Of a stretch of 37,405 nucleotides of DNA, positions 4,066 through 20,042 are shown piece after piece. A program made the translations under genes and the position numbers. How positions within the stretch are numbered: position 1 is the stretch's first letter; each line of letters opens with the position of its first letter. This stretch comes from an uncultured Succiniclasticum sp. Lineage in GTDB: Bacteria > Bacillota > Negativicutes > Acidaminococcales > Acidaminococcaceae. The notes beneath the pieces were generated by a model. That model saw only the letters and a list, made by a program, of their open reading frames with translations, was not told where the DNA came from and made no database searches. Where the stretch lies: assembly GCA_905233365.1 (NCBI GenBank), contig CAJODT010000003.1:1-37405 (forward strand). The letters are read 5' to 3'.

Positions 4066-5598
4066 TTATACCGGGAAGTTGCCATGGCGTTTTGCCGGAC
4101 GGCTCTCGCGTTTGGTCTCCAACATATGCAGAGCGCTGATAATTGCCGGACGGCTGTTCTTCGGCTCGATGATGATATCTACCATGCCGCGTTCAGCTGC
4201 AATGTACGGAGTCGCAAATTTATCAACATATTCTTCGGTGCTCTTCTTCTGAGTTTCCGGATCCTGTTTCTTGAAGATGATGTTGGCAGCGCCAGCAGGT
4301 CCCATAACAGCGATTTCAGCGGTCGGCCAGGCAATAACCTGATCTGCGCCCAGTTCCTGGGAGCACATTGCCAGATAAGAGCCGCCGTAAGCTTTACGGG
4401 TAACCATGGTGATCTTCGGAACAGTTGCTTCGGAATAAGCATACAGCATTTTAGCGCCGTGACGGATGATTCCGCCATATTCCTGAACGGTGCCGGGCAG
4501 GAAGCCGGGAACGTCAACCAGGTTCAGCAGAGGAATGTTGAAAGCGTCGCAGAAGCGAATGAAACGAGAGGATTTATCGGAAGCATTGATGTCCAGGCAG
4601 CCGGCCATAACTTTCGGCTGGTTGGCAATGATACCGATGGTTTCGCCGTCCATACGTGCGAAGCAGGTGATGATGTTCTGAGCCCAGTATTTCTGGTTCT
4701 CATAGTATTCACCATTATCAACGATAGCTTTGATTACGTCGTACATGTCGTAAGAAGCGTTGCTGTTGTCCGGGCAGATGCTGTTCAGCTCTACTGCAGT
4801 ACGGTTCGGATCGTCGCCAGTGTCAACGATCGGAGCAGTTTCCATGTTGTTGGAAGGCAGGAAGCTTAACAGATAACGGATCTGCTGGATGCAGTCAGCG
4901 TCATCTTCCGCTGCGAAGTTCGCAACACCGGAACGGGAGTTGTGGGTCATAGCGCCACCCAGCTGTTCCTGGGTTACTTCTTCACCGGTAACGGATTTAA
5001 CAACCAGCGGACCAGTGATGAACATCTTGGAGGTTTCTTTTACCATGTAGATGAAGTCGGTCAGAGCCGGGCTGTAAACAGCGCCGCCTGCGGACGGTCC
5101 CATGATAGCAGAAATCTGGGGGATAACACCGGAAGAAATGGTGTTGTTGAAGAACAGTTTGCCATAGCCGCCCAGAGCGTCGATAGCTTCCTGAATACGA
5201 GCTCCGCCGGAGTCGTTCAGACCAACGCAGGGAGCGCCCATCTTCAGGGCCAGATTCTGAACTTTGGCAATCTTGTTGGCATGCATTTCACCCAGGGAGC
5301 CGCCTTCAACGGTGAAGTCCTGCGCGAATACATAAACCAGACGACCATCAACAGTGCCGTAACCAGTGGTTACGCCTTCACCAGGCAGTTCTTTCTTGTC
5401 CTGGCCGAAGTTGGTGCAACGATGACGAACGAAGCGATCCAATTCAACAAAGGAACCTTCATCCATCAACAGTGCAATTCTTTCCCGAGCGGTCAGTTTG
5501 CCTCTTTCGTGCTGTTTTTCAACAGCCTTCGGACCGCCGGCGCCCAAAATCACTTCGGATTTTTTGAGCATTTTCTCAATTCTTTCCTGAGTAGTCAA
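4066..5598 (-). CDS. mmdA: methylmalonyl-CoA decarboxylase alpha subunit (carboxyltransferase)
   Basis: 510 residues, the usual length for the biotin-dependent acyl-CoA carboxyltransferase family. It transfers the carboxyl group of methylmalonyl-CoA to biotin on MmdC, giving propionyl-CoA. Visible signatures are GGSLGEMHA (99-107) and SGGARIQE (130-137) in the N-terminal crotonase-like half, and the DVPGFLPG and MGPAGAANI regions in the C-terminal half. The start is TTG 5598, with GGAGG nine bases upstream; the family N-terminus (MTTQERIEKM) agrees. A propionyl-CoA carboxylase beta chain would look similar, but no biotin carboxylase gene is present and the mmdD/C/B genes follow. Confidence 0.95.
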   Translation of the reverse strand: MTTQERIEKMLKKSEVILGAGGPKAVEKQHERGKLTARERIALLMDEGSFVELDRFVRHRCTNFGQDKKELPGEGVTTGYGTVDGRLVYVFAQDFTVEGGSLGEMHANKIAKVQNLALKMGAPCVGLNDSGGARIQEAIDALGGYGKLFFNNTISSGVIPQISAIMGPSAGGAVYSPALTDFIYMVKETSKMFITGPLVVKSVTGEEVTQEQLGGAMTHNSRSGVANFAAEDDADCIQQIRYLLSFLPSNNMETAPIVDTGDDPNRTAVELNSICPDNSNASYDMYDVIKAIVDNGEYYENQKYWAQNIITCFARMDGETIGIIANQPKVMAGCLDINASDKSSRFIRFCDAFNIPLLNLVDVPGFLPGTVQEYGGIIRHGAKMLYAYSEATVPKITMVTRKAYGGSYLAMCSQELGADQVIAWPTAEIAVMGPAGAANIIFKKQDPETQKKSTEEYVDKFATPYIAAERGMVDIIIEPKNSRPAIISALHMLETKRESRPAKRHGNFPV

Positions 5599-5713: not shown

Positions 5714-6133
5714 TTAAGCTTTGTGCGGAGTGCAGAGTTCTAACAGGATGCCAACAGATTTCGGATGTACGAAAGCGATGTCCATTCCGCCAGCGCCGCC
5801 GCGGGGAGCTTTGTCGATCATTACGCCGCCTTTTGCCTGTACGTCGGCAATAGCTGCTACCAGATCGTCTACCAACAGAGCTACATGCTGGATACCCTGG
5901 CCGTTCTTGGCAATGTATTTGCCGATCGGGCCATCATTGTTTTCGGTGATGTCAACCAGCAGCTCGATTAAGTTCGGACCGCATTTAATAAATACGGTTT
6001 TTACGCCCTGAGACGGAACTGCTTCTTCACCGGTGCATTCCAAACCCAGAATATCAGTGTAGAATTTCTTGGAAATTTCCAGGTCTTTGCATGCAACACC
6101 AATGTGATCAATCTTCGATACTGTAAATGCCAT
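5714..6133 (-). CDS. mce: methylmalonyl-CoA epimerase
   Basis: 139 residues, two glyoxalase/VOC-type beta-alpha-beta-beta-beta modules. The first opens KIDHIGVAC and supplies a His ligand. The second carries QHVALLVDDL and the final ILLELCTP strand with the Glu ligand typical of the family. The enzyme interconverts the (R) form made by the mutase and the (S) form used by the decarboxylase. ATG 6133 is chosen because AGGAGG ends nine bases upstream; an in-frame ATG at 6142 abuts the ribosome site and leaves no spacing. It lies between meaB and mmdA in one transcription unit. Confidence 0.95.
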   Translation of the reverse strand: MAFTVSKIDHIGVACKDLEISKKFYTDILGLECTGEEAVPSQGVKTVFIKCGPNLIELLVDITENNDGPIGKYIAKNGQGIQHVALLVDDLVAAIADVQAKGGVMIDKAPRGGAGGMDIAFVHPKSVGILLELCTPHKA

Positions 6134-6180
6134 AAGAATCATCCTCCTAGTAAATAAAATTATTTATTTTAAGGCACTTC

Positions 6181-7122
6181 TTATTTGAGTACCTTAGAAA
6201 CAATATTATCAACCACAGAATACGGCTCAGTTTCTCTGCGCTGAAGTTTTTCAATAATCTCATCAAATTCAGCAGTACGAACCACATTTTTATCTATGTA
6301 ACGGTTAACACGAACATTGACCATATCCGTAACTTCGGATTTAATTCTTGCTTTACGGATATCGTCCAGCTTGCCGGTCTTTGTCAGGAACTCACGATGA
6401 GCCAAAATCGAATCTACAACAGCTTCGGTGCCCTGATCCTTGCTGGCAATCGTACGGTTGATGGGCGGACGCCAGCCGGCATTCTTTTCGTTGTTTAACT
6501 CCAGCATCATTTCCATTTCAATATTCAGCTTATCGGCGCCTTCCCGATCTGCCTTATTGATAGTGAGCAAGTCGCCGATTTCAAGAATACCTGCTTTGAT
6601 AGCCTGGATATCGTCACCCATTCCCGGAATGACAACTACCATCGTCGTATCTGCCGTCTTTACGATATCCACTTCAGACTGGCCAACGCCAACGGTTTCA
6701 ACCAAAATAATATCCATGCCGAACGCGTCCATCAGCTTAACCGCATCGCCGGCCTTCTGGGACAATCCGCCCAGACTGCCACGGGTGGCCATGGAACGAA
6801 TAAAGATTCCGGTATCCATCATCAGATCCATCATGCGGATACGGTCGCCCAAAATAGCGCCGCCGGAATAGGGGCTCGTGGGATCAATCGCAACAATACC
6901 TACAGTCTTACCGCGCTTACGGAATTCTTTTGCAATCTTATCAGTCAGGGTTGATTTACCTGCGCCGGGAGGCCCTGTTATACCAATAACATAAGCATGT
7001 CCGGTGTGTGTGTAAATCTTGGTCATTATATCAACTGCATTGTCATATTCATTTTCAACGGCTGTTATGCCTTTGGAAAGCGCAAGACGATTATGCTTTA
7101 AAATTTCCTCTACAATGTCCAT
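6181..7122 (-). CDS. meaB: MeaB/ArgK-type GTPase, mutase chaperone
   Basis: 313 residues of the G3E GTPase family. The P-loop GPPGAGKS lies at 50-57, with the conserved DPTSPYSGGAILGDR block after it and NKAD as the guanine-specificity motif. MeaB proteins gate delivery of adenosylcobalamin to methylmalonyl-CoA mutase and eject damaged cofactor. The residues between P-loop and NKAD match the family well, and length is normal. The ribosome binding site (AAAGAG) is weak compared with its neighbours, and a strong hairpin precedes the gene, both suggesting lower expression than the mutase subunits. Confidence 0.93.
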   Translation of the reverse strand: MDIVEEILKHNRLALSKGITAVENEYDNAVDIMTKIYTHTGHAYVIGITGPPGAGKSTLTDKIAKEFRKRGKTVGIVAIDPTSPYSGGAILGDRIRMMDLMMDTGIFIRSMATRGSLGGLSQKAGDAVKLMDAFGMDIILVETVGVGQSEVDIVKTADTTMVVVIPGMGDDIQAIKAGILEIGDLLTINKADREGADKLNIEMEMMLELNNEKNAGWRPPINRTIASKDQGTEAVVDSILAHREFLTKTGKLDDIRKARIKSEVTDMVNVRVNRYIDKNVVRTAEFDEIIEKLQRRETEPYSVVDNIVSKVLK

Positions 7123-7215: not shown

Positions 7216-7605
7216 TTACTTTACGTTAGCGTTGATGAAATCAACAACTTTGCTGGTCGGGGTGCCGGGAGTGAATACTTCGGCAATACCGGCAGCTTTC
7301 AGGCCAGGGATGTCAGCGTCAGGAATAACGCCGCCACCGATAACCAGAACGTCGGTCATTCCTTTTTCCTTCAGCAGTTCAACTACCTTCGGGAACAGGG
7401 TGTTGTGAGCGCCGGACAGCAGGCTCAGAGCTACTACGTTAACGTCGTCCTGCAGAGCAGCTTCAGCGATCTGCTCGGGGGTCAGGCGAATGCCAGTGTA
7501 AATTACTTCAAAACCAGCGTCGCGCAGAGCACGAGCAACAACTTTTGCACCACGGTCATGTCCGTCCAGACCCGGTTTTGCAACTAATACTTTAATGTTA
7601 GCCAT
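7216..7605 (-). CDS. methylmalonyl-CoA mutase, cobalamin-binding subunit
   Basis: 129 residues forming a stand-alone B12-binding domain. The signature DGHDRG (14-19) supplies His16 as the lower axial cobalt ligand; SLLSG and GGGVIPD complete the nucleotide-tail pocket. It pairs with the 548-residue catalytic chain encoded 38 bases upstream to make the split-type mutase, as in several anaerobes and archaea, instead of a single fused chain. ATG 7605 follows GGAGG at nine bases. Confidence 0.95.
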
Positions 7606-7643: not shown

Positions 7644-9290
7644 TTATAATGCGGTATGAGCTTTGAATTCGCCAAATACCTGACGCATTACGCCGCAGAT
7701 TTCGCCTTCGGTTGCATAAGCTTCAACAGCTTCCAGAATCAGCGGAACCAGGTTAACGCTTTCGTCAGCGCAAGCAGCCTTCAGAGCAGCCAGTTTAGCT
7801 TCAACAGCGGCATTGTCGCGTTTCGCTTTAACTTTGGCAATCTTGTCAGCCTGCAGTTTGCCTACGGAGCCGTCTACGCGCAGCAGGTTTTTCGGAGGTT
7901 CTTCTTCCTGGGTGAATTTGTTAACGCCAACGATGATGCGACGGCCAGCTTCGATATCCATCTGCCATTTGTAAGCGGAATCCTGGATTTCTTTCTGGAT
8001 GTAGCCCTTAGCAATAGCTTCGGGAGCGCCACCGAGTTCGTCAATCTTTTCAATGTAATCCCAAGCTTCTTTTTCGATCTTGTTGGTCAGAGCTTCTACA
8101 TAGTAGGAACCGCCCAACGGGTCGATGGTGTCAGCCAGGCCAGATTCGTAAGCAACGATCTGCTGAGTACGCAGAGCGATGGTAACGGATTCAGTGGTCG
8201 GCAGAGCCAGAGCTTCGTCCTTGGAGTTGGTGTGCAGGGACTGGGTGCCACCCATAACAGCTGCTGCAGTCTGTAAAGCAACACGAACGATGTTGTTGTT
8301 GGGCTGCTGAGCGGTCAGCATGGAACCAGCGGTCTGAGTGTGTACACGCAGCATCATGGATTTAGCTTTCTTAGCGCCAAAGCGTTCTTTCATAACTTTG
8401 GCCCATACGCGGCGGGAAGCACGGAATTTAGCAACTTCTTCCAATACGTTGTTGTGAGCATTCCAGAAGAAGGACAGACGGCCTGCGAAAGCGTCAACGT
8501 CCATACCGGCTTTGATAGCAGCTTCTACATAAGCGATGCCGTCGGCGATGGTGAATGCGATTTCCTGGGAAGCGGTGGAACCAGCTTCACGGATGTGGTA
8601 ACCGGAAATGGAGATGGTGTTCCATTTCGGAACGTATTTGGAGCAATACTCAAAAATGTTGGTGATCAGACGCATGGACGGTTTCGGCGGGAAAATGTAG
8701 GTGCCGCGAGCAGCATATTCTTTCAGAATATCGTTCTGAATGGTGCCGCGCAGTGCGTCGGAAGGAACACCCTGTTTCTTGGCAACGGCGATGTACATGC
8801 AGAGCAGTACGGAAGCCGGAGCATTGATGGTCATAGAAGTGGAAACTTTGTCCAGAGCGATCTGGTCAAACAGGATTTCCATATCAGCCAGGGAGTCGAT
8901 AGCTACGCCTACTTTACCAACTTCGCCTTCAGCCATCGGATCGGTGGAATCATAACCGATCTGGGTCGGCAGGTCGAATGCGCAGGACAGGCCGCTGCCA
9001 CCGTTTGCTAACAGGTAGCGATACCGTTTGTTGGATTCTTCAGCAGTGGAGAAACCAGCATACATACGCATGGTCCAGAATTTGCCGCGATACATGGTCG
9101 GCTGTACGCCACGGGTAAAGGGATATTCTCCGGGATAGCCGAGGTCTTTTTCATAATCAAAGCCTTCAACATCCAGAGGGGTGTACAGACGATTCGGTTC
9201 CAGGTTTGCACGTTCCGGGAATTTAGCCGCGCCAGCATCAGCTTTAGCCATGTACGCATCAAATCCCGCTTTCAGAGTTTCATTTGCCAT
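7644..9290 (-). CDS. methylmalonyl-CoA mutase, large (catalytic) subunit
   Basis: 548 residues, a TIM-barrel mutase without the B12 domain, which is the separate downstream gene. The substrate-site stretch [11 protein letters not shown] begins at Tyr77 and SGYHIREAG carries His232; both match catalytic positions in the family. The enzyme converts succinyl-CoA to (R)-methylmalonyl-CoA with adenosylcobalamin. The start is ATG 9290, with AAGGAGG eight bases upstream. The open frame extends 23 codons further, but those residues ([13 protein letters not shown]) fit no family N-terminus. It opens the operon behind a roughly 200-base structured leader. Confidence 0.95.
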
Positions 9291-9487
9291 TCTCAAATCC
9301 TCCTTAAAATATAAATATAAATTTGGTTTCGCAACGCGGGTTGGACAGTTCCGCATCACGGTGAGAGTGTTCCGTCAGAGACGGCTTTGTATGGCAAGAT
9401 CCTTTGGGATCCAGTCAACAGTTTTAAAATCATAATTGGACGGTTATGATTTCAGGAGTGGGGCTGAGGACATCAGCCCCACGTGAC
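9291..9487 (-). promoter_or_regulatory. long structured 5' leader of the mutase operon
   Basis: From the inferred start near 9487 to the mutase gene there are about 197 untranslated bases. They contain a 10-pair hairpin (9482-9458), an 8-to-9-pair hairpin (9452-9427), then small stems GATCC/GGATC and CCGTC/GACGG. I looked for the B12-box pattern of cobalamin riboswitches and did not find it. The first two hairpins could also act as a terminator region for the upstream CoA-transferase. Confidence 0.5.
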
Positions 9488-9540: not shown

Positions 9541-11079
9541 TTATTCAGCCGGTTTTTCCATGGAGCCGGTTTCTTCGAACCATTTGTACATATCAAATGC
9601 TTCGGACAGAATGTGCGGGGTCTGGCTGTTGCCGCATTTTACGCAAGCTCTTTCAAAGTAATCCTTCAGGTACGGCTGATATTTCGGATTAGCAATCTGA
9701 TCGATGATGATCGGAGCTTTTTCTTTCGGGGTCAGGCCGCGCAGGTCAGCAACGCCGCGTTCGGAAACGATAACGTCAACGTCCAGGGTTGCATGGTCGA
9801 TATGGCTGCAGAACGGAACTACGGAGCTGATCTTGCCGCCCTTTGCCAGGGAGTTGGTGAAGAATACGGTCAGGTAGCCGTTACGGGCGAAGTCGCCGGA
9901 ACCGCCAACACCGTTCATCAACTTGGTGCCGCAAACATGGGTGGAGTTAACGTTGCCATAGATATCAACTTCGATAGCGGTGTTCATAGCGATAACGCCG
10001 ATACGACGGGCAACTTCCGGGCTGTTGGAAATTTCCTGCGGACGGAGCAGCAGATATTTTTTGTAGAAGTCTACGTTTTCATAGAACTTCTTCTGGCATT
10101 CCGGAGACGGAGTCAGAGCGGTACCGGAAGCAACGCGCAGTTTGCCGGCGTCGATCAGGTCGAACATGCCGTCCTGGATTACTTCGGTGTAAACGGTCAG
10201 ATCTTTGAAGTCGGAGTTAACCAGACCGTTGATAACCGCGTTGGCAACGGAACCTACGCCGGACTGTAACGGCAGCAGGTTAGCCGGCAGACGGCCTTCC
10301 TTAACTTCGTTCTTCAGGAAGTTAACCAGGTTCTGGCCCATATGTTTTGCGTCTTCGTCGATTTCGCCCAGCGGACGAACTTTATCGGTGATGTCGCAGG
10401 GAACTACAGCTACGATCTTATCCAGTTCGCAGGGGATGTACGGAGTACCGATACGGTCTTCCGGTCTTTCAACAGGAATCGGTTTACGGTTCGGAGGATC
10501 CAGAGGAACATAGGAGTCATGCATGCCTTCCAGGCCTACCGGCTGGGTGGTGTTAACTTCTACGATTACTTTCGGAGCAGTAGCTACATAGGAGGAGCTG
10601 TTGCCCATGGAAGTGGTCGGGATCAGGCCAACTTTGCCGTCGCCCAGGTCGTTGATCTTGCAGACTTCAACGATAGCGAAATCAATTTTCTTGCGGTCAG
10701 CCATGAAGCCGTAACGGGCCATCTGTGCAAAATGGGACAGATGAATGTCGGCATAACGAACTTTGCCGGCGTTGATAGCTTTACGCAAGGTTGCATTGGT
10801 CTGATAAGGCAGGCGGCGGTCCATGCAGCCAGCTTCAACCATGGCAGCATCAATTTCCGGACCTACGGACGCGCCGGTCCAAACATTAACTTTGAAAGGA
10901 GTCTTTTTTGCTTTTTCTGCCAGAGCCAGAGGCACAGCCTTCGGATAGCCGGACGGAGTAAAGCCGCTGACGCCGAGGCAGTCGCCGTCTTTAATCATTT
11001 CAGCAGCTTCTTCAGCAGTTTTAAATTTGCTAACTACTGATGCACAAACACGATCTTTGATGTCTTCAAAACCTACCAT
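9541..11079 (-). CDS. acetyl-CoA hydrolase/CoA-transferase family, probably propionyl-CoA:succinate CoA-transferase
   Basis: 512 residues, class I CoA-transferase fold of the AarC/Cat1/Ach1 group. The glycine loop GVGSVANAV (274-282) and TEVIQDG with the likely catalytic Glu299 are present, as is GSGDF further on. These enzymes form a glutamyl-CoA intermediate. Next to the mutase and decarboxylase the obvious job is moving CoA from propionyl-CoA to succinate, which closes the cycle without ATP. That substrate pair is inferred; acetate or butyrate could also serve. ATG 11079 is preceded by AAGGAGG at twelve bases and GGAAGG nearer. The upstream open frame lacks a ribosome site. Confidence 0.88.
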   Translation of the reverse strand: MVGFEDIKDRVCASVVSKFKTAEEAAEMIKDGDCLGVSGFTPSGYPKAVPLALAEKAKKTPFKVNVWTGASVGPEIDAAMVEAGCMDRRLPYQTNATLRKAINAGKVRYADIHLSHFAQMARYGFMADRKKIDFAIVEVCKINDLGDGKVGLIPTTSMGNSSSYVATAPKVIVEVNTTQPVGLEGMHDSYVPLDPPNRKPIPVERPEDRIGTPYIPCELDKIVAVVPCDITDKVRPLGEIDEDAKHMGQNLVNFLKNEVKEGRLPANLLPLQSGVGSVANAVINGLVNSDFKDLTVYTEVIQDGMFDLIDAGKLRVASGTALTPSPECQKKFYENVDFYKKYLLLRPQEISNSPEVARRIGVIAMNTAIEVDIYGNVNSTHVCGTKLMNGVGGSGDFARNGYLTVFFTNSLAKGGKISSVVPFCSHIDHATLDVDVIVSERGVADLRGLTPKEKAPIIIDQIANPKYQPYLKDYFERACVKCGNSQTPHILSEAFDMYKWFEETGSMEKPAE

Positions 11080-11445
11080 AATAATTACCTTCCTCCTTAA
11101 AATATTATGAGAAATTTTCCGCGGCTCGCCGCGAGTAAAACAAGCTTGGTTCCGCAAACCCCGTATCTAAATTTACGGAAACAAGGATTGCTTTGAATCC
11201 AAAATTATTATAACACAAAAAAAACAAAAAAGCGAATGGAATTAAATAAAAAATGGAACAAATCTAAAATTTTCGGAAAAACCCTGCATTTCCCGATTTG
11301 TCCAACACAAAAAACTCAACTTATTCCAAAACAACTTCATGTGTTGGAATGATTTTACCAATTCTCACAACTTTTCGCAAGGCAGGTTACACATTTTGTT
11401 TTTTTTTTACAGGAATTCTCCCCTTCTGCTTCGTAACACGCATTG
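11080..11445. other. intergenic region upstream of the CoA-transferase
   Basis: 366 bases without a supportable gene. It holds the CoA-transferase leader with two small stems (CCGTA/TACGG at 11161-11178 and CGCGG/CCGCG at about 11120-11133), the promoter near 11210, a poly-A/T tract, and an 8-base inverted repeat TCCAACAC/GTGTTGGA at 11301-11348. No clear terminator for the upstream O-antigen-ligase-like gene is visible. Confidence 0.5.
11207..11215 (-). promoter_or_regulatory. extended -10 promoter of the CoA-transferase gene
   Basis: A perfect TATAAT (11212-11207) preceded by TGT, an extended -10. The -35 region is T-rich without a recognisable TTGACA. The leader would be about 120 bases. 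Confidence 0.55.
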
Positions 11446-14187: not shown

Positions 14188-14220
14188 TTAAGAGACACTG
14201 ATTCATCAGCGTCTCCTTAA
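14188..14220. repeat. 33-base palindromic copy of the TTAAGGA repeat, overlapping the valS stop codon
   Basis: The sequence starts TTAAGAGACACTG and ends CAGCGTCTCCTTAA. Its ends match the termini of the larger copies at 16921-17086, 17476-17536 and 17788-17848. The valS TAA (14219-14217) lies inside it, so the element supplies the stop codon and a hairpin directly after the gene. Confidence 0.75.
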
Positions 14221-16868
14221 ATCGTTTTCAGGTACGCCAGCCGTTCTTCAATGGTTTTGATCTTGGCCGCGAACTCTTCCGCTTTTGCCTGTTCTTTTTC
14301 CACAACCTCTTTCGGCGCTTTGGCCAGGAAGCTCTGGTTCTGCAGCTTGCCGCTCACCCGCTGCATCTCTTTCTGCAGTCCGGCCAGTTCCTTATTCAGA
14401 CGGGCGGTTTCCACCTCCACGTCAATCAGCGCTTTCAGCGGCAGATACACTTCCACGCCCGCATTCACGGAGGCCATGGCATTTTCCGGTTTGGCGGCCG
14501 TCAGCGGCAGCAGTTCCATGTCGTCCACATTGGCCAGTAGATGGATATAGGCGGCATTCTCCCGGAACACTTCTGTCAGTTCGTCCGATACCAGCAGGAT
14601 TGCGGGAACTTTTTTGCCCGGGTTCACGTTCACTTGGGACCGCATTTCACGGATGGACCGGATGGCGTTCATGATGGCTTCCATTCCCTTTTCCGCCGCC
14701 TTATCCTGCAAGGCGGGATCCGCTTCCGGCCAGGCGCTGATCATGATGCTTTCGGTGTCATGGGGCAGTGCCTGATAGATTTCTTCCGTAATAAACGGCA
14801 TGTAGGGATGCAACAGTTTCATGGCGCCGGTCAGCACGGTCACCAGTACCTGCTGGGCCGTTGCCCGGGCTTTCTCCCCGGCTTTGCCGTACAGTCTCGG
14901 TTTGATCATTTCAATGTACCAGTCGCAGATCTCGCCCCAGATGAAATCATACACGGTACGGCCTGCTTCGCCCAGCTCAAACTTATCCAGCAGCGCGGTC
15001 ACATCCGCGGCCACATCCTGCATGCGGGAAAGGATCCACTTATCCGCCAGTTCGTAAGGCGCCCGTTTCGCGTTGACCTGATAGCCTTCCAGATTCATCA
15101 GCGCGAAGCGGGAAGCGTTCCAGATTTTATTGGCAAAGTTCCGTGTGGCTTCCAGACGGCTCCAGTAGAAACGCATGTCGTTGCCGGGCGTATTGCCGGT
15201 GATCAGCATGAAGCGCAAGGTGTCGCAGCCATACTGTTCGATCACCTGCAGCGGATCGATACCGTTGCCCAGGGATTTACTCATCTTCCGGCCCTGCTCG
15301 TCCCGCACCAGACCATGTATGAACACCCGGTCAAAGGGAATGTCCTTCATGAATTCCATGCCCATGATCAGCATGCGGGCCACCCAGAAGAAGATGATAT
15401 CGTAACCGGTCACCAGTACGCTGGTGGGATAGAACTGTTTCAGGATATCCGTTTTTTCCGGCCAGCCCATGATGGAGAACGGCCACAGGGCAGAACTGAA
15501 CCAGGTATCCAGGGCATCTTCATCCTGATGCACGTGACCGCCGCACTTCGGGCATTTGTCCAGGTCAGTACGGGACGCGATTTCCGCGCCGCAGTCATCA
15601 CAGTACCAGACAGGGATGCGGTGTCCCCACCAGATCTGGCGGCTGATGCACCAGTCGTGCATGTTTTCCATCCAGCCCAGATAATTCTTGGTAAAACGTT
15701 CCGGCACGAACTGGGTACGCCCATCCTTTACGCAATCGGTGGCAGCTTTCAGCAGCGGCTCCATCTTTACGAACCACTGGGTGGAAATCAGGGCTTCAAT
15801 GGGTTCACCGCAGCGCTGGCAATGTCCCACGGAGTGCGGGCAGTCTTCAATCTTCACCAGCAGTCCCAGCTCGTCCAGGTCTTTTACGATATTCTTACGG
15901 CATTCATAGCGCTCCTGTCCTTCATAGGGTCCGGACTCTTTGGTCATGATGCCGTCTTTATCGATGACAACGATGGCTTCCAGGTTCTGCCGCAGACTCA
16001 TCTCATAGTCGTTGGGGTCATGGGCCGGGGTAATCTTAACGGCGCCGGTACCGAATTCCGTATCAACATAGTCATCGGCAATAATGGGGATCTCCCGGTT
16101 CATAATCGGCAGCAGGATCTTTTTCCCTACCAGCTTGCCATACCGCTCGTCCTTCGGATTTACGGCTACCGCCGTATCGCCGGGGATGGTTTCCGGACGG
16201 GTAGTGGCAATGGTCAGGTATTCCCCTTCATGACCGATGATCGGGTACCTGATATACCACAGATGGCCCGCGTCATCTTTGTGTTCTACTTCAATGTCGC
16301 TTAAGGCCGTATTGCAGTTAACACACCAGTTGGTGATGCGGGTGCCCCGGTAAATCAGTCCCCTTTCATATAAGGAAACAAACACTTCGCGCACCGCGCG
16401 GGAGCATCCTTCGTCCAGGGTAAAGCGGATGCGGTCCCAGTCGCAGGAAATGCCCAGGCATTTCAGCTGGTCGATGATCCGGTTACTGTACTGTTCTTTC
16501 CAGGCCCAGACCCGTTTCACGAACTTTTCCCGTCCCAGGTCATAGCGGGTCAGTCCTTCATTCTTTTTAATTTCTTCTTCCACTTTAATCTGGGTTGCCA
16601 GTCCGGCATGGTCGTAGCCGGGGAACCAGATTGTGTTATCTCCCATCATACGGTGCCAGCGGATCAGGATATCCTGCAGCGTGTTGTCCAGGGCATGCCC
16701 CATGTGCAGCTGTCCCGTAATATTGGGAGGCGGAATGACAATGGTAAACGGTTTTCTGTCCGGGTCCGGTTCCGCGTGGAAATATTTATTCTTTTCCCAG
16801 AACTGATACCATTTCTTCTCTACCGATGCGGGATCATACGTTTTAGGGATGTTGTGCTCTTCTGCCAT
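14217..16868 (-). CDS. valS: valyl-tRNA synthetase
   Basis: 883 residues, normal for a bacterial ValRS. It charges tRNA-Val. HIGH-type signature HMGH is at 55-58 and KMSKS at 528-532; the CP1 editing domain lies between, with two Cys-pair knuckles (CVNCN near 182; CDDC with CPKC near 423-442). Residues from about 815 form the C-terminal coiled coil. ATG 16868 follows AGGAGG at seven bases. It is preceded by a T-box leader, and its stop codon falls within a repeat copy. Downstream come folC and the O-antigen-ligase-like gene. Confidence 0.98.
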   Translation of the reverse strand: MAEEHNIPKTYDPASVEKKWYQFWEKNKYFHAEPDPDRKPFTIVIPPPNITGQLHMGHALDNTLQDILIRWHRMMGDNTIWFPGYDHAGLATQIKVEEEIKKNEGLTRYDLGREKFVKRVWAWKEQYSNRIIDQLKCLGISCDWDRIRFTLDEGCSRAVREVFVSLYERGLIYRGTRITNWCVNCNTALSDIEVEHKDDAGHLWYIRYPIIGHEGEYLTIATTRPETIPGDTAVAVNPKDERYGKLVGKKILLPIMNREIPIIADDYVDTEFGTGAVKITPAHDPNDYEMSLRQNLEAIVVIDKDGIMTKESGPYEGQERYECRKNIVKDLDELGLLVKIEDCPHSVGHCQRCGEPIEALISTQWFVKMEPLLKAATDCVKDGRTQFVPERFTKNYLGWMENMHDWCISRQIWWGHRIPVWYCDDCGAEIASRTDLDKCPKCGGHVHQDEDALDTWFSSALWPFSIMGWPEKTDILKQFYPTSVLVTGYDIIFFWVARMLIMGMEFMKDIPFDRVFIHGLVRDEQGRKMSKSLGNGIDPLQVIEQYGCDTLRFMLITGNTPGNDMRFYWSRLEATRNFANKIWNASRFALMNLEGYQVNAKRAPYELADKWILSRMQDVAADVTALLDKFELGEAGRTVYDFIWGEICDWYIEMIKPRLYGKAGEKARATAQQVLVTVLTGAMKLLHPYMPFITEEIYQALPHDTESIMISAWPEADPALQDKAAEKGMEAIMNAIRSIREMRSQVNVNPGKKVPAILLVSDELTEVFRENAAYIHLLANVDDMELLPLTAAKPENAMASVNAGVEVYLPLKALIDVEVETARLNKELAGLQKEMQRVSGKLQNQSFLAKAPKEVVEKEQAKAEEFAAKIKTIEERLAYLKTI

Positions 16869-17093: not shown

Positions 17094-17123
17094 AAAAAAT
17101 CCTGTTACAACATTGCAACAGGA
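17094..17123 (-). terminator. T-box-controlled terminator of valS
   Basis: TCCTGTT/AACAGGA stem with a ten-base loop, followed on the minus strand by ATTTTTTATTTTG. It lies seven bases past the conserved T-box sequence, so it is the alternative to the antiterminator. Confidence 0.9.
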
Positions 17124-17470
17124 CGAATTTCCGCGGTACCACCTGAATTCTTTGCTTATAATCCGGAAAAGACTGCCTGAGTCTGTATGCGCAACCTGAT
17201 CGCGCCACTCTTTCGCTGACTCAATTATTCACTCACTTCCCGCCCGATCACAAACAAAGCTCTTATTTATTACGTAACGTGTAACACGGGAACACTTACC
17301 CATATGACAGTATAAGGAAACCGAAATATTTTTTCTTCCATATTAAAATACTGCTGCCATACTTCAGCGCTCCGGCTCCCGGGCTACCTTCCGGCATTCC
17401 GACCGGACGATTTTCACCAGCCTCGTCCTCTCTTCAGATCTTTCTGCCGTACTCCTCCCGATCCCAGCTT
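17124..17470 (-). promoter_or_regulatory. T-box riboswitch leader of valS
   Basis: The conserved T-box AGGTGGTACCGCGG is at 17144-17131, followed by the terminator. Upstream, the Stem I-like part carries GAAGAGAGGAC and GGTGAAAATC, as usual in these leaders. A candidate specifier codon GTA (Val), preceded by GAA, lies at 17362-17360. T-box leaders bind uncharged cognate tRNA and then favour antitermination, so this should raise valS (and folC) when valine-tRNA is uncharged. The T-box and terminator are certain; the specifier is a reading of pattern only. Confidence 0.9.
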
Positions 17471-17475
17471 TTGGC

Positions 17476-17926: not shown

Positions 17927-18856
17927 ATGGAATCACTGCATGTTACATCCAACCGTGAAAAGATCGCCATGCGAATCTCCTGGTACAGCATCGCGGTCAA
18001 TGTGTTTTTATCCCTGGGCAAATTTATCGCAGGCATATTCGGCCATTCTGCAGCAATGGTCTCCGATGCCATCCATTCTGCTTCTGATGTCTTTGCCACC
18101 TTTATTGTCATGGCCGGCATTAAAATCTCCGGACGCGCTTCCGACGATGACCACCAGTACGGCCATGAGCGCCTGGAATGCGTAGCCTCCATACTGTTGT
18201 CAGTGATTCTGGCCCTGACCGGACTGGCTATCGGCTACGCCGGCATCGAAAAAATCATGAACCAGGATACGGAAGCGATTGCCATTCCTACGTTCCTCCC
18301 GCTGGCCGCCGCCATCGTTTCTATCGTGGTGAAAGAAGCCATGTACTGGTACACACGCCATTACGCCCTGATGCTGGAATCCGATGCGTTAATGGCAGAC
18401 GCCTGGCATCACCGCAGCGATTCCCTGTCTTCTGTCGGCAGCTTCGTCGGCATTTTGGGTGCCCGCATGGGTTATCCCATTCTGGATCCCATCGCCAGCG
18501 TAGTGATCTGCCTGATGATCCTGCAGGCAGGCTATGAAATTTTTATGGGCGCCATTGACAAAATGGTAGACAAAGCCTGTTCCAAAGAAGAAGAGGATGC
18601 CATGCGGTCCAAGGTTTCCGCTATCCCCGGCGTCAATCACATCGACCTGCTGCGCACCCGCCAGTTCGGCAGCCGCATCTTTGTAGATGTAGAAGTCAGC
18701 GCCGACGACAACCTGACCCTGCTGCAGTCCCATCAGATTGCGGAAAGCATCCATGAATCTATTGAAAAGGATTTCCCTAACGTAAAACACTGCATGGTAC
18801 ACATCAACCCCTTAAGCGAAGTGTCCCATGAATGTTACGGGGAGCATCGTCATTAA
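17927..18856 (+). CDS. cation diffusion facilitator (CDF) metal exporter
   Basis: 309 residues with about six membrane segments, a His-rich DDDHQYGHE loop (73-81) and a cytoplasmic C-terminal domain (about 215-300). The transport site is the paired HxxxD: His50/Asp54 in SDAIHSASD and His161/Asp165 in DAWHHRSD. The H/D pairing resembles Zn-type members, where FieF/YiiP has D/D in the first pair; Zn, Co, Fe or Mn cannot be told apart for certain. CDF proteins export divalent metal ions in exchange for protons from the cytoplasm. ATG 17927 follows AAAGGAG. It is the only plus-strand gene in its neighbourhood and ends tail-to-tail with an orphan riboswitch transcript. Confidence 0.93.
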   Translation: MESLHVTSNREKIAMRISWYSIAVNVFLSLGKFIAGIFGHSAAMVSDAIHSASDVFATFIVMAGIKISGRASDDDHQYGHERLECVASILLSVILALTGLAIGYAGIEKIMNQDTEAIAIPTFLPLAAAIVSIVVKEAMYWYTRHYALMLESDALMADAWHHRSDSLSSVGSFVGILGARMGYPILDPIASVVICLMILQAGYEIFMGAIDKMVDKACSKEEEDAMRSKVSAIPGVNHIDLLRTRQFGSRIFVDVEVSADDNLTLLQSHQIAESIHESIEKDFPNVKHCMVHINPLSEVSHECYGEHRH

Positions 18857-18933: not shown

Positions 18934-18978
18934 GCAAATAAAAAACCCGCATGGTCCAGATGCGGGTTTTTTATTTGC
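18934..18978. terminator. bidirectional intrinsic terminator after the CDF gene
   Basis: A perfect 19-pair stem with a seven-base loop, containing AAAAAACCCGCAT and ATGCGGGTTTTTT. It can end the exporter transcript on the plus strand and any read-through from the riboswitch on the minus strand. Confidence 0.95.
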
Positions 18979-19077
18979 AGCTGTGTCAAAAGGAGAAGGA
19001 GAAGGATGGGAATTTGCTAAATGACTTGTGAATAGCAAATGACTTTATCAAAATATTTCGCCCTGCAAGTAAAGAAT

Positions 19078-19109
19078 AAGACCGTTTCTGCTTGCGCAGG
19101 AACGGTCTT
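19078..19109 (-). terminator. intrinsic terminator behind the cobalamin-riboswitch-like RNA
   Basis: A 14-pair stem (AAGACCGTT/AACGGTCTT plus an inner CTGC/GCAG) with a four-base loop, followed on the minus strand by ATTCTTTAC. It lies about 40 bases after the riboswitch core, where an expression platform is expected. Confidence 0.7.
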
Positions 19110-19139
19110 GATATCATTCACTGGCGCCTCCCCACTCTC

Positions 19140-19289
19140 ACCTAGAAAGGCACTTCATGTCAAACATCACTATCCTGTCGCTCGCAGGTTAAGCACGGAT
19201 GCTTATACAGTTTACGTTCCGGTTATACGGTGACGGGATCACATCGGAATTACACCGATTTAATAAACTGCACGAAATATTTATTTGAT
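19140..19289 (-). ncRNA. cobalamin-riboswitch-like RNA with no gene behind it
   Basis: The block at 19257-19226 on the minus strand reads CGGTGTAATTCCGATG then TGATCCCGTCACCGTA. It matches, position for position, the RF00174-type core GGTGnAAnTCC...GYGRTCCCGYCACYGT. Next comes CCGGAACGTAAACTG and a GCATCCGTGC stem where that family has its GcCACUG segment, and a 3' TGACATGAAGTGCC in place of TCAGGAGACCTGCC (only about half matching). A consensus promoter precedes and a terminator follows, giving an RNA of about 215 bases. On the minus strand there is no open frame between the terminator and the CDF gene, which is antisense. The identification is from memory of the consensus; a weak 3' part leaves some doubt. 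Confidence 0.65.
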
Positions 19290-19295
19290 GTTTTA

Positions 19296-19324
19296 ATTAT
19301 AACGATTCCTATTAAGTCTGTCAA
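19296..19324 (-). promoter_or_regulatory. consensus promoter of the riboswitch RNA
   Basis: TTGACA (19324-19319), exactly 17 bases, TATAAT (19301-19296) on the minus strand: a perfect sigma-A match. A 12-base direct repeat ATCAAATAAATA flanks it, at 19338-19327 and 19289-19278. Confidence 0.9.
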
Positions 19325-19367: not shown

Positions 19368-20024
19368 TTATTTTTCCAGATTCACTTCAGAATCTGCTGT
19401 CAATGCTGCCATGATACGGTTGATAAAGTCCAGCCGCATGGTAGGCTGCAGGACAGAATAGGCCGTAATCTGTTCATCCGTAAGTCCCAGCGCTTTTTTA
19501 AAAGCCGCACGTTGGGACATCGCCGCATTCCTGCCGAGCTTATCCGCTTTGGTCAGAACTACATGAACGTTGAGCCCGCAATCCAGCATCCATTTATATG
19601 CCTCAATATCGCTGTCCATCAGCTTATGGCGTATATCCATCAATTGGCAGACCAGCGCAAGGTTCGGCGCCTCTTCCAGATACTTGCGGATAAAGCCGGA
19701 CCATTGTTCCTTGTTTTTATGATTTGTCTTTGCGAACCCGTAACCGGGAAGATCCACCAGATAAAACTGTGTCCTGTCTTCCGCCTGTTCTGTTACCCGC
19801 TTCGCATCCAGCCGGTAAAAATTCAGTGTCTGCGTCTTACCGGGAGAAGAGCTGACCCTTGCCAGCCCGTTCCGGCGGCAGACCGAATTGATCAGAGAAG
19901 ACTTCCCTACATTGGAACGCCCTATAAACGCTACTTCAGGTAAATAAGGCTTAGGATACTGTTCCGCCCGGACTGCAGAAGTCACAAAGTCCGCACGGAT
20001 AACATCCCAGTGTTCTTTTGTCAT
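19368..20024 (-). CDS. engB: ribosome biogenesis GTPase EngB/YsxC (YihA)
   Basis: 218 residues of the TRAFAC EngB family. P-loop GRSNVGKS is at 35-42, the SSSPGKTQTLNFY switch I follows, then DLPGYGFAKT as G3 and TKAD as G4. The protein takes part in late 50S subunit assembly. Start is ATG 20024, five bases after GAGGAGG; GTG 20030 overlaps that site. It closes the tig-clpP-clpX-lon-FAD operon, 18 bases after the flavoprotein; lon-engB linkage is common in bacteria. No terminator is visible between its stop and the riboswitch promoter. Confidence 0.95.
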   Translation of the reverse strand: MTKEHWDVIRADFVTSAVRAEQYPKPYLPEVAFIGRSNVGKSSLINSVCRRNGLARVSSSPGKTQTLNFYRLDAKRVTEQAEDRTQFYLVDLPGYGFAKTNHKNKEQWSGFIRKYLEEAPNLALVCQLMDIRHKLMDSDIEAYKWMLDCGLNVHVVLTKADKLGRNAAMSQRAAFKKALGLTDEQITAYSVLQPTMRLDFINRIMAALTADSEVNLEK

Positions 20025-20042
20025 GCGCACCTCCTCATCTTA

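Follow-up and report, generated by a model that had tools for sequence, protein, structure and literature searches.

Only a handful of riboswitches are known to control a regulatory RNA rather than a gene, most of them in Listeria and Enterococcus. In Rli55 of Listeria and EutX of Enterococcus, a B12 aptamer and a terminator precede a non-coding 3' domain, and the long RNA carries ANTAR sites that sequester EutV, with the eut genes adjacent. ANTAR sites are paired hairpins with hexaloops. Two small RNAs of another kind, FsrA of B. subtilis and IsrR of Staphylococcus, are not known to carry a B12 aptamer. Both are Fur-controlled and iron-sparing and possess an unpaired C/U-rich stretch complementary to Shine-Dalgarno sequences (PMC9410917). 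In AspocR (Rli39) of Listeria, a B12 riboswitch terminates a 1,400-nt antisense RNA to pocR early when B12 is present, and in SreA, also of Listeria, a SAM riboswitch that serves an operon in cis acts in trans through its short terminated form (both described in PMC8079631).

Here we describe an RNA element in a window of 37,405 nucleotides (the whole stretch of DNA analysed, from an uncultured Succiniclasticum sp.; GenBank assembly GCA_905233365.1, contig CAJODT010000003.1) that, judged from its sequence and conservation, is real, looks functional and appears to belong with the riboswitches that control regulatory RNA. It reads as a unit of one promoter, an aptamer, an attenuator (T1), a conserved 3' domain with a CU tract in most copies and a final terminator (T2), with no constant gene in cis (Table 1). 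We consider it likely that a cobalamin riboswitch here gates the elongation of a dedicated small-RNA gene; a riboswitch and terminator ahead of a non-coding output, with no cis gene, is an arrangement that it shares with riboswitch-controlled regulatory RNAs of the Rli55, EutX and AspocR kind. As in Rli55 and EutX, the long RNA is predicted at low B12, but no ANTAR pair was recognised in the element, the neighbours examined include no eut gene, and a CU-rich tract is there instead. It would share with AspocR the B12-dependent premature termination of a non-coding RNA, yet is predicted to stop before any neighbouring gene, and with SreA the (here proposed) use of a riboswitch RNA as a trans regulator. 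The unpaired C/U-rich region typical of the FsrA and IsrR kind is found in its predicted long form. A sequence-only reading of this DNA had already invoked the Listeria and Enterococcus precedents for a B12-controlled small RNA. The precedents are apt, although the output appears to be of another sort, with a CU-rich tract in place of any obvious antisense RNA or RNA that sequesters a protein. Conservation, covariation, the variety of gene neighbourhoods and a second terminator now give the B12-controlled small RNA good support.

Table 1 Coordinates of the RNA element, of other features in the window and of related loci (window positions unless a locus is named)
Feature	Position	Strand	Remarks
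RNA element overall	19290-18935	-	promoter + aptamer + T1 + 3' domain ending at T2
Promoter TTGACA-17-TATAAT	19296-19324	-	spacer contains TTAATAGGAATCG, a motif common to two other sRNA-like promoters of the same genome
5' leader, strand 1 of long-range helix H1	19273-19286	-	partner 19047-19060
Divergent cobalamin (AdoCbl-type) riboswitch aptamer	19162-19290	-	RF01482 39.3 bits, E 6.9e-6; R1 171.8 bits
Hairpin with loop GGTGTAATTCC	19243-19259	-	L5-like core motif
Hairpin Y (AAGC/GCTT)	19190-19205	-	pairs nearly invariant
P13, CCTG-CGAGCGA-CAGG	19174-19188	-	alternative partners: 19062-19066 (X) for the 5' arm, T1 5' arm for loop and 3' arm (antiterminator)
Hairpin L	19124-19153	-	covarying stem; loop GTGAGAGTGG; GTGAGAG in 35/36 R1 copies
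T1 attenuator terminator	19071-19109	-	hairpin 19078-19109, U-rich tail 19071-19077; two-sided changes in 10/13 pairs
Post-T1 segment GCAGG-N-CGAAATATTTTGAT	19047-19066	-	closes predicted four-way junction with P13 5' arm (X) and leader (H1)
CU-rich, anti-Shine-Dalgarno-like single-stranded tract CCCATCCTTCTCCTTCTCCTTTT	18988-19010	-	98% unpaired in predicted long form; related to CU tracts of two siblings
T2 final intrinsic terminator	18935-18977	-	loop CTGGACC
EngB/YsxC GTPase, upstream neighbour of RNA	19368-20030	-	TIGR03598
CDF cation exporter	17927-18856	+	PF01545, TIGR01297; tail-to-tail with RNA, no overlap
Succinate CoA-transferase	9541-11157		propionate-pathway cluster
Methylmalonyl-CoA mutase	7644-9359		propionate-pathway cluster
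B12-binding subunit	7216-7605		propionate-pathway cluster
MeaB	6181-7122		propionate-pathway cluster
Glyoxalase-fold protein, probably epimerase	5714-6142		propionate-pathway cluster
Carboxyl transferase	4066-5598		propionate-pathway cluster
Sibling sRNA-like units	G000:C9:44202 and C9:54457 (L136, L137)		shared spacer motif, CU tract, terminator type
Aptamer-less RNA of G027	L023, promoter at 1508	reverse complement	between divergent TonB-receptor-like and nicotinamidase-like genes (names by reading)
NiCo riboswitches near RNA, Phascolarctobacterium loci	L111 266-356, L059 4765-4855, L045 3240-3334, L050 3516-3611, L041 6350-6438		
Cobalamin riboswitches before mutA-mutB	L114 8323-8504, L118 5590-5770, L111 8494-8669, L117 2819-2992, L112 9331-9504, L116 5308-5476		

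Aptamer, promoter and distribution of the RNA

At its cut-off, the cobalamin family RF00174 identified two other riboswitches in the same genome (on contigs C9 and C42) and missed the RNA of the window. With Rfam in E-value mode on 401 bases, the AdoCbl family RF01482 matched 19162-19290 on the minus strand at 39.3 bits (E 6.9e-6), which does not reach the gathering score of 50; the alignment spans model positions 1-149 of 149 and contains the GGTGTAATTCC and TCCCGTCAC core. Most homologues given to Rfam were under the cut-off as well (8 of 12 and 12 of 18 RNA-bearing loci, in two sets that overlap, several loci being the same genomes). Those that passed were L020 (51.7 bits, RF01482), L021, L017 and L019 (38.6, 31.7 and 31.6 bits, RF00174) in the first set, and L058 and L042 (56.5 and 51.7 bits, RF01482) together with L059, L033, L037 and L041 (38.6, 34.1, 31.6 and, for a partial match, 31.9 bits, RF00174) in the second. 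Thus the cobalamin-riboswitch core noted in the sequence-only reading, which had named RF00174 for a covariance search, is upheld by a full-length RF01482 match and by homologues above the cut-offs, but the window itself stays under them.

We built a covariance model, R1, solely from 27 aligned RNAs that include that of the window, and it also retrieves the genome's two ordinary cobalamin riboswitches, with 56.1 bits on C42 and 44.7 bits on C9. Since the window is under the cut-off, yet some homologues pass and R1 finds ordinary cobalamin riboswitches, we place the aptamer, from its sequence, as a divergent homologue within the cobalamin riboswitch clan (RF00174 and RF01482) rather than as a cut-off member. 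It has the core motifs, among them the hairpin loop at 19243-19259 that we take to be the L5-like motif, a hairpin at 19174-19188 that is presumably the P13 of cobalamin riboswitches, and a terminator-type platform. It differs from the riboswitches of both families in its score, an extra hairpin (L), a four-way-junction strand behind T1, an sRNA-like tail and the lack of a constant cis gene. Folding of 19060-19289 is 5.2 sd better than that of shuffles. The ligand would be AdoCbl or another corrinoid; Negativicutes riboswitches are described as predominantly promiscuous (PMC9600662).

The promoter matches the consensus at 12 of 12 positions, with the -35 TTGACA at 19319-19324, a 17-base gap and the -10 TATAAT at 19296-19301, and TTGACA-17-TAYAAT is kept in all 27 aligned homologues (TATAAT in 19, TACAAT in 8). 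The perfect promoter sequence noted in the sequence-only reading is confirmed. Weaker promoter matches in the scan numbered 7 against 4.3 expected in shuffles, which is not significant alone.

Of 59 Acidaminococcaceae genomes searched with R1, 36 hold one such RNA each (141.2-173.1 bits), including all 14 from the genus of the window. The lowest of these scores is well separated from the next family match (93.6 bits). R1 also had matches in 223 of 250 genomes sampled from the class, family members included, and scored at most 74.6 bits outside Acidaminococcaceae. In the genus with the 93.6-bit match, each of three cis riboswitches of that score range that were examined (L093-L095) is followed by a ribosome site and a gene. 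A pattern scan of genome contigs from 84,980 species returned 31 stretches, 26 titled as Acidaminococcaceae, Succiniclasticum or Phascolarctobacterium and 5 as 'uncultured Selenomonadales'. Judged from listings, no description of such an RNA was found in the open-licence literature on Succiniclasticum, Phascolarctobacterium, Acidaminococcaceae or Negativicutes.

For the alignment, 27 copies were taken from loci L001-L062 by the P13 pattern and the GTGAGAG motif and thinned to distinct cores. Their sameness at these two places is therefore partly by choice, and for this reason we also inspected the 36 R1-found copies (34 located by script and two by hand), R1 itself being derived from the 27. 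The promoter hexamers are present in all 36, the strict P13 pattern in 34 (exceptions G072 and G074, with CGGG for CAGG) and GTGAGAG in 35 (exception G021, with GTGAGAA).

The RNA thus extends through much of a family of gut and rumen bacteria, including ones that live on the conversion of succinate to propionate. With a B12 sensor placed inside what seems to be a small regulatory RNA and not ahead of a gene, such bacteria may tune other genes to B12 supply through RNA. The B12-dependent methylmalonyl-CoA mutase (PF01642) is encoded by 34 of the 36 RNA-bearing genomes and by 12 of the 23 others, a comparison uncorrected for kinship. Unlike most of the family, genus g13 (nine genomes: G025, G036 and G061-G067) has neither the PF01642 mutase nor any R1 match.

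Conserved structure and predicted switch

The RNAalifold consensus of the 27 copies spans the element and comprises helices H1, P1, hairpin Y and X, arranged as a four-way junction in which they abut with at most one free base, together with hairpin L and T1. Over 54 pairs, 95.7% of cells are paired, compared with 86.3% in shuffles and 40-48% when slid; 28 pairs show two-sided change, and on each measure none of 500 shuffles equals the whole structure. For H1 and X alone the difference is smaller (96.8% of cells paired against 93.5% in shuffles), with nine two-sided cells in three pairs, all of them among the ten pairs of H1; 20 of 500 shuffles reach three two-sided pairs and none reaches nine cells. 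Helix X (P13 5' arm CCTGC with post-T1 GCAGG) changes on one side only and so has no covariation of its own. On these counts P1, hairpin L and T1 are firmly supported and H1 moderately, and X rests mainly on conservation and wobble changes. The segment behind T1 that supplies the second strands of H1 and X is present in all 27 aligned and all 36 R1 copies. The loop of hairpin L (19124-19153) keeps GUGAGAG in all but one of the 36 copies atop a covarying stem.

The intrinsic terminator of the sequence-only reading corresponds to T1, a terminator-like hairpin at 19078-19109 in which 10 of 13 pairs have two-sided changes, although by reading the U-tract behind it is weak in the genus of the window. 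Predicted pairing probabilities differ between the two forms. In the short form T1 reaches a probability of up to 0.96 and P13 of 0.48, and in the long form X reaches 0.87-0.91 and H1 up to 0.98, with P13 below 0.3. In transcripts cut before the T1 3' arm, the T1 5' arm pairs with the P13 loop and 3' arm at a mean probability of about 0.35. P13 excludes this antiterminator and X alike, while antiterminator and X are compatible with each other. Of 135 antiterminator cells, 129 remain paired (slid controls, 7-97), and each of the 27 copies retains at least four of the five pairs; this invariance is partly forced, because the same bases also serve P13 and T1. The T1 pairs 246-271 and 247-270 are invariant, and their C's could also pair with the GG of P13. 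In two genomes of g16 outside the 27 (G072 and G074), the P13 3' arm reads CGGG instead of CAGG and the T1 5' arm CCCGTT instead of CCGTT; through these matching changes the antiterminator is still paired, with one pair more. The loop of hairpin L was also considered as an antiterminator strand and dropped, by eye, as that pairing is not maintained across the family.

These competing pairings, P13 against antiterminator and X, may decide between a short and a long RNA. When a corrinoid is present, P13 would form and be held by the aptamer, leaving the T1 5' arm free, so that T1 terminates and an RNA of about 220 nt is released. In its absence, the P13 loop and 3' arm would pair with the T1 5' arm and polymerase would pass T1; the resulting RNA of about 355 nt would refold into the four-way junction of H1, P1, Y and X, which is incompatible with P13. 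That ligand binding favours P13 and termination is suggested by the usual direction of such switches and by AspocR (PMC8079631).

The 3' domain and relatives without an aptamer

Beyond T1, the predicted long form leaves CATCCTTCTCCTTCTCC single-stranded, with a mean unpaired probability of 0.98. Pyrimidine excess in the CU region is significant (p<=0.05 against base shuffles) in 17 of the 27 copies, eight of which are near-identical, and is weak in L022, L024, L027 and L028. A T2-like terminator follows in all 27 aligned copies and in 34 of 34 scored R1 copies, compared with 2.8% of 680 dinucleotide-shuffled tails. What had been taken for a bidirectional terminator at 18934-18978 is better read as T2, the 3' end of a longer RNA. 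The RNA accordingly reaches beyond the 19078-19324 first assigned to it, as 19047-19066 and 18988-19010 also belong to it. A loop C[CT]GGAC[AC] on a stem of at least four pairs occurs in 19 of the 27 copies; it moves between stems, lying in T2 in the genus of the window and in a hairpin of its own in Phascolarctobacterium. The 27 aligned copies have no reading frame in common. A leader peptide at the conserved GATGTT was rejected: it has 8-10 codons in many copies but is longer, open or otherwise framed in others.

The promoter and the tail also exist apart from the riboswitch, as seen in two siblings and in an RNA of another genus, all without an aptamer. The complement of the CU tract (19 bases, at most three mismatches) occurs at five places in the window's own genome and at none for the control: in the window, at two intergenic places on C9 and inside two ORFs. 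At both C9 places a promoter with the same spacer motif is followed by a CU tract and a CCCGCA-type terminator. The first sibling leads a FecCD/ABC/periplasmic-binding operon, is present at nearly full length in 8 of the genus's 14 genomes, and matches the window's CU tract and T2 by BLAST (18941-19008, 79% identity, E 2.2e-7). The second follows a CbiK-family gene (PF06180; under the NCBIfam CbiK cut-off) and is near full length in G000 and G008 only. In G027, which belongs to another genus, the same promoter is followed by an RNA made up of a leader, a hairpin with GGUGAGAG in its loop, CAATCCTCCTTCC and a terminator; this genus has the mutase and no R1 match, and no Hfq was found in its three genomes. 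Across 20 genomes the CU-tract pattern is found at 84 places against 83 for the control, and none of the seven loci examined (L141, L147, L151, L153, L154, L157 and L158) resembles a sibling RNA. The aptamer-less relatives may reveal how a riboswitch joins, or leaves, an sRNA.

The motif in the promoter spacer, written down from the three sRNA-like promoters, occurs five times in the genome and not at all for the control: at these three promoters and at two weaker places, which precede an MFS gene and a gene of the sodium:sulfate symporter family. Judged by eye it may resemble a Fur box, and one of the three RNAs leads the FecCD operon. The motif shared with this transporter operon hints that the RNA's promoter may be under metal control; a Fur site is a guess.

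Possible roles, rival explanations and surroundings

If this is a riboswitch-gated small RNA, it may act in trans on other mRNAs through the CU tract, by analogy with known small RNAs. The CU-rich tract of the long RNA would base-pair, probably together with Hfq, to the Shine-Dalgarno regions of target mRNAs and repress these under B12 scarcity. Of the 59 genomes 55 encode Hfq, among them 35 of the 36 that carry the RNA; that no Hfq was found in the genus of the aptamer-less G027 RNA counts against this picture. Neither complement searches in the window's own genome nor duplex energies of 81 genes gave a firm candidate for an mRNA target. The complement of the hairpin-L loop occurs at 12 places (window included) against 26 for the reversed control. 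Among the 81 genes, a non-random set enriched in B12 genes, one in a cob/cbi cluster, which reads as CbiA-like, ranks first and mutB second. The mutB ribosome site is much alike in G033, a genome without the RNA, and no genome-specific match was seen.

It is possible, if doubtful, that the RNA takes two inputs: a metal-responsive promoter would start it, the AdoCbl riboswitch would permit its completion only under B12 shortage, and the long form with its CU-rich tract would silence cobalt- or B12-linked genes that the cell can spare. Passage through T1 would commit the RNA irreversibly, because the conserved four-way junction bars the long form from the B12-binding fold. If true, this would amount to a 'cobalamin-sparing response' analogous to iron sparing by FsrA, IsrR and RyhB. 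The isolates Succiniclasticum ruminis DSM 9236 and Phascolarctobacterium faecium DSM 14760 offer a natural system in which to ask about such a response run by an sRNA.

We regard it as unlikely that the RNA binds a protein instead of mRNAs, with the loops GUGAGAG(U/G)GG of hairpin L and CYGGACM as protein sites and B12 deciding whether the full decoy is made, as in Rli55 and EutX. The near-constancy of GTGAGAG over a covarying stem, the C[CT]GGAC[AC] loops on stems in 19 of the 27 copies and the return of the GGUGAGAG loop in the aptamer-less RNA of G027 would all suit such sites. The conserved loops nevertheless do not look like paired ANTAR hexaloops, loop length in hairpin L and the CYGGACM hairpin being other than six in most folds seen. 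There is also no candidate protein, and the CU tract would be left unexplained. Listeria does provide a precedent for a decoy (PMC8079631).

We think it very unlikely that the riboswitch acts in cis on a downstream gene by read-through of T1 and T2. A co-directional gene does come next in some genomes (by Pfam, an L-PSP/RidA-family gene in L037, RibD_C in G029 and L112, and an HD-domain gene in L054), but T2 intervenes, the downstream gene varies by genus, and it is on the opposite strand in the genus of the window and in P. faecium. Opposite-strand AzlC, DHquinase II and chromate-transporter genes lie beside the RNA in L045, L051 and L058 (Pfam), and no constant downstream gene was found among the family loci compared. 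In the window, scanned down to 17474, no gene soon follows on the minus strand, as the sequence-only reading had stated; mechanical ORFs antisense to CDF excepted, the first feature there is a T-box leader at 17474.

An antisense or 3'-end-interfering RNA against the CDF metal exporter is highly improbable. RNA and CDF are tail-to-tail in the genus of the window (L034; L055 by reading), in L035 and in P. faecium (L059), and in some Phascolarctobacterium loci the CDF gene bears a NiCo riboswitch: in P. faecium one (RF02683, 74.5 bits, L059/L111) lies 67 bases upstream of the CDF gene that neighbours the RNA, and L041, L045 and L050 each have one directly 5' of a CDF gene near the RNA. The window's own CDF had no NiCo match upstream up to E 1. 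Against an anti-CDF role, the predicted RNA ends at T2 (18935), 78 bases before the CDF gene; the CDF gene lies upstream in L041, while L045, L050 and L058 have it 1.4-2.5 kb beyond P13, separated by other genes. The proposed link to the 3' end of the exporter therefore comes down to a neighbourhood effect at most, with other genes in that place in several genomes.

We give next to no credit to the earlier suggestion that the RNA is what remains of a cis riboswitch after loss of its transporter gene. It is homologous to cis riboswitches that have genes behind them, but it is a conserved single copy in 36 of 59 family genomes; its helices covary, its promoter is conserved, and so is a 3' domain that the three cis riboswitches examined did not show.

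The surroundings of the dedicated small-RNA gene that we favour include a propionate-pathway cluster within the window (Table 1). In P. faecium the RNA lies behind a same-strand run of riboswitch, mutA, mutB, meaB and a 97-residue ORF. In six loci the mutA-mutB genes for methylmalonyl-CoA mutase stand behind a cobalamin riboswitch (RF00174, 92.6-110.8 bits); ahead of a B12-dependent mutase, an ON switch would make more sense. The T-box leader of the window (17116-17474; RF00230, 110.6 bits) lies upstream of an ORF at 14217-16868 that resembles valyl-tRNA synthetase and appears ordinary.
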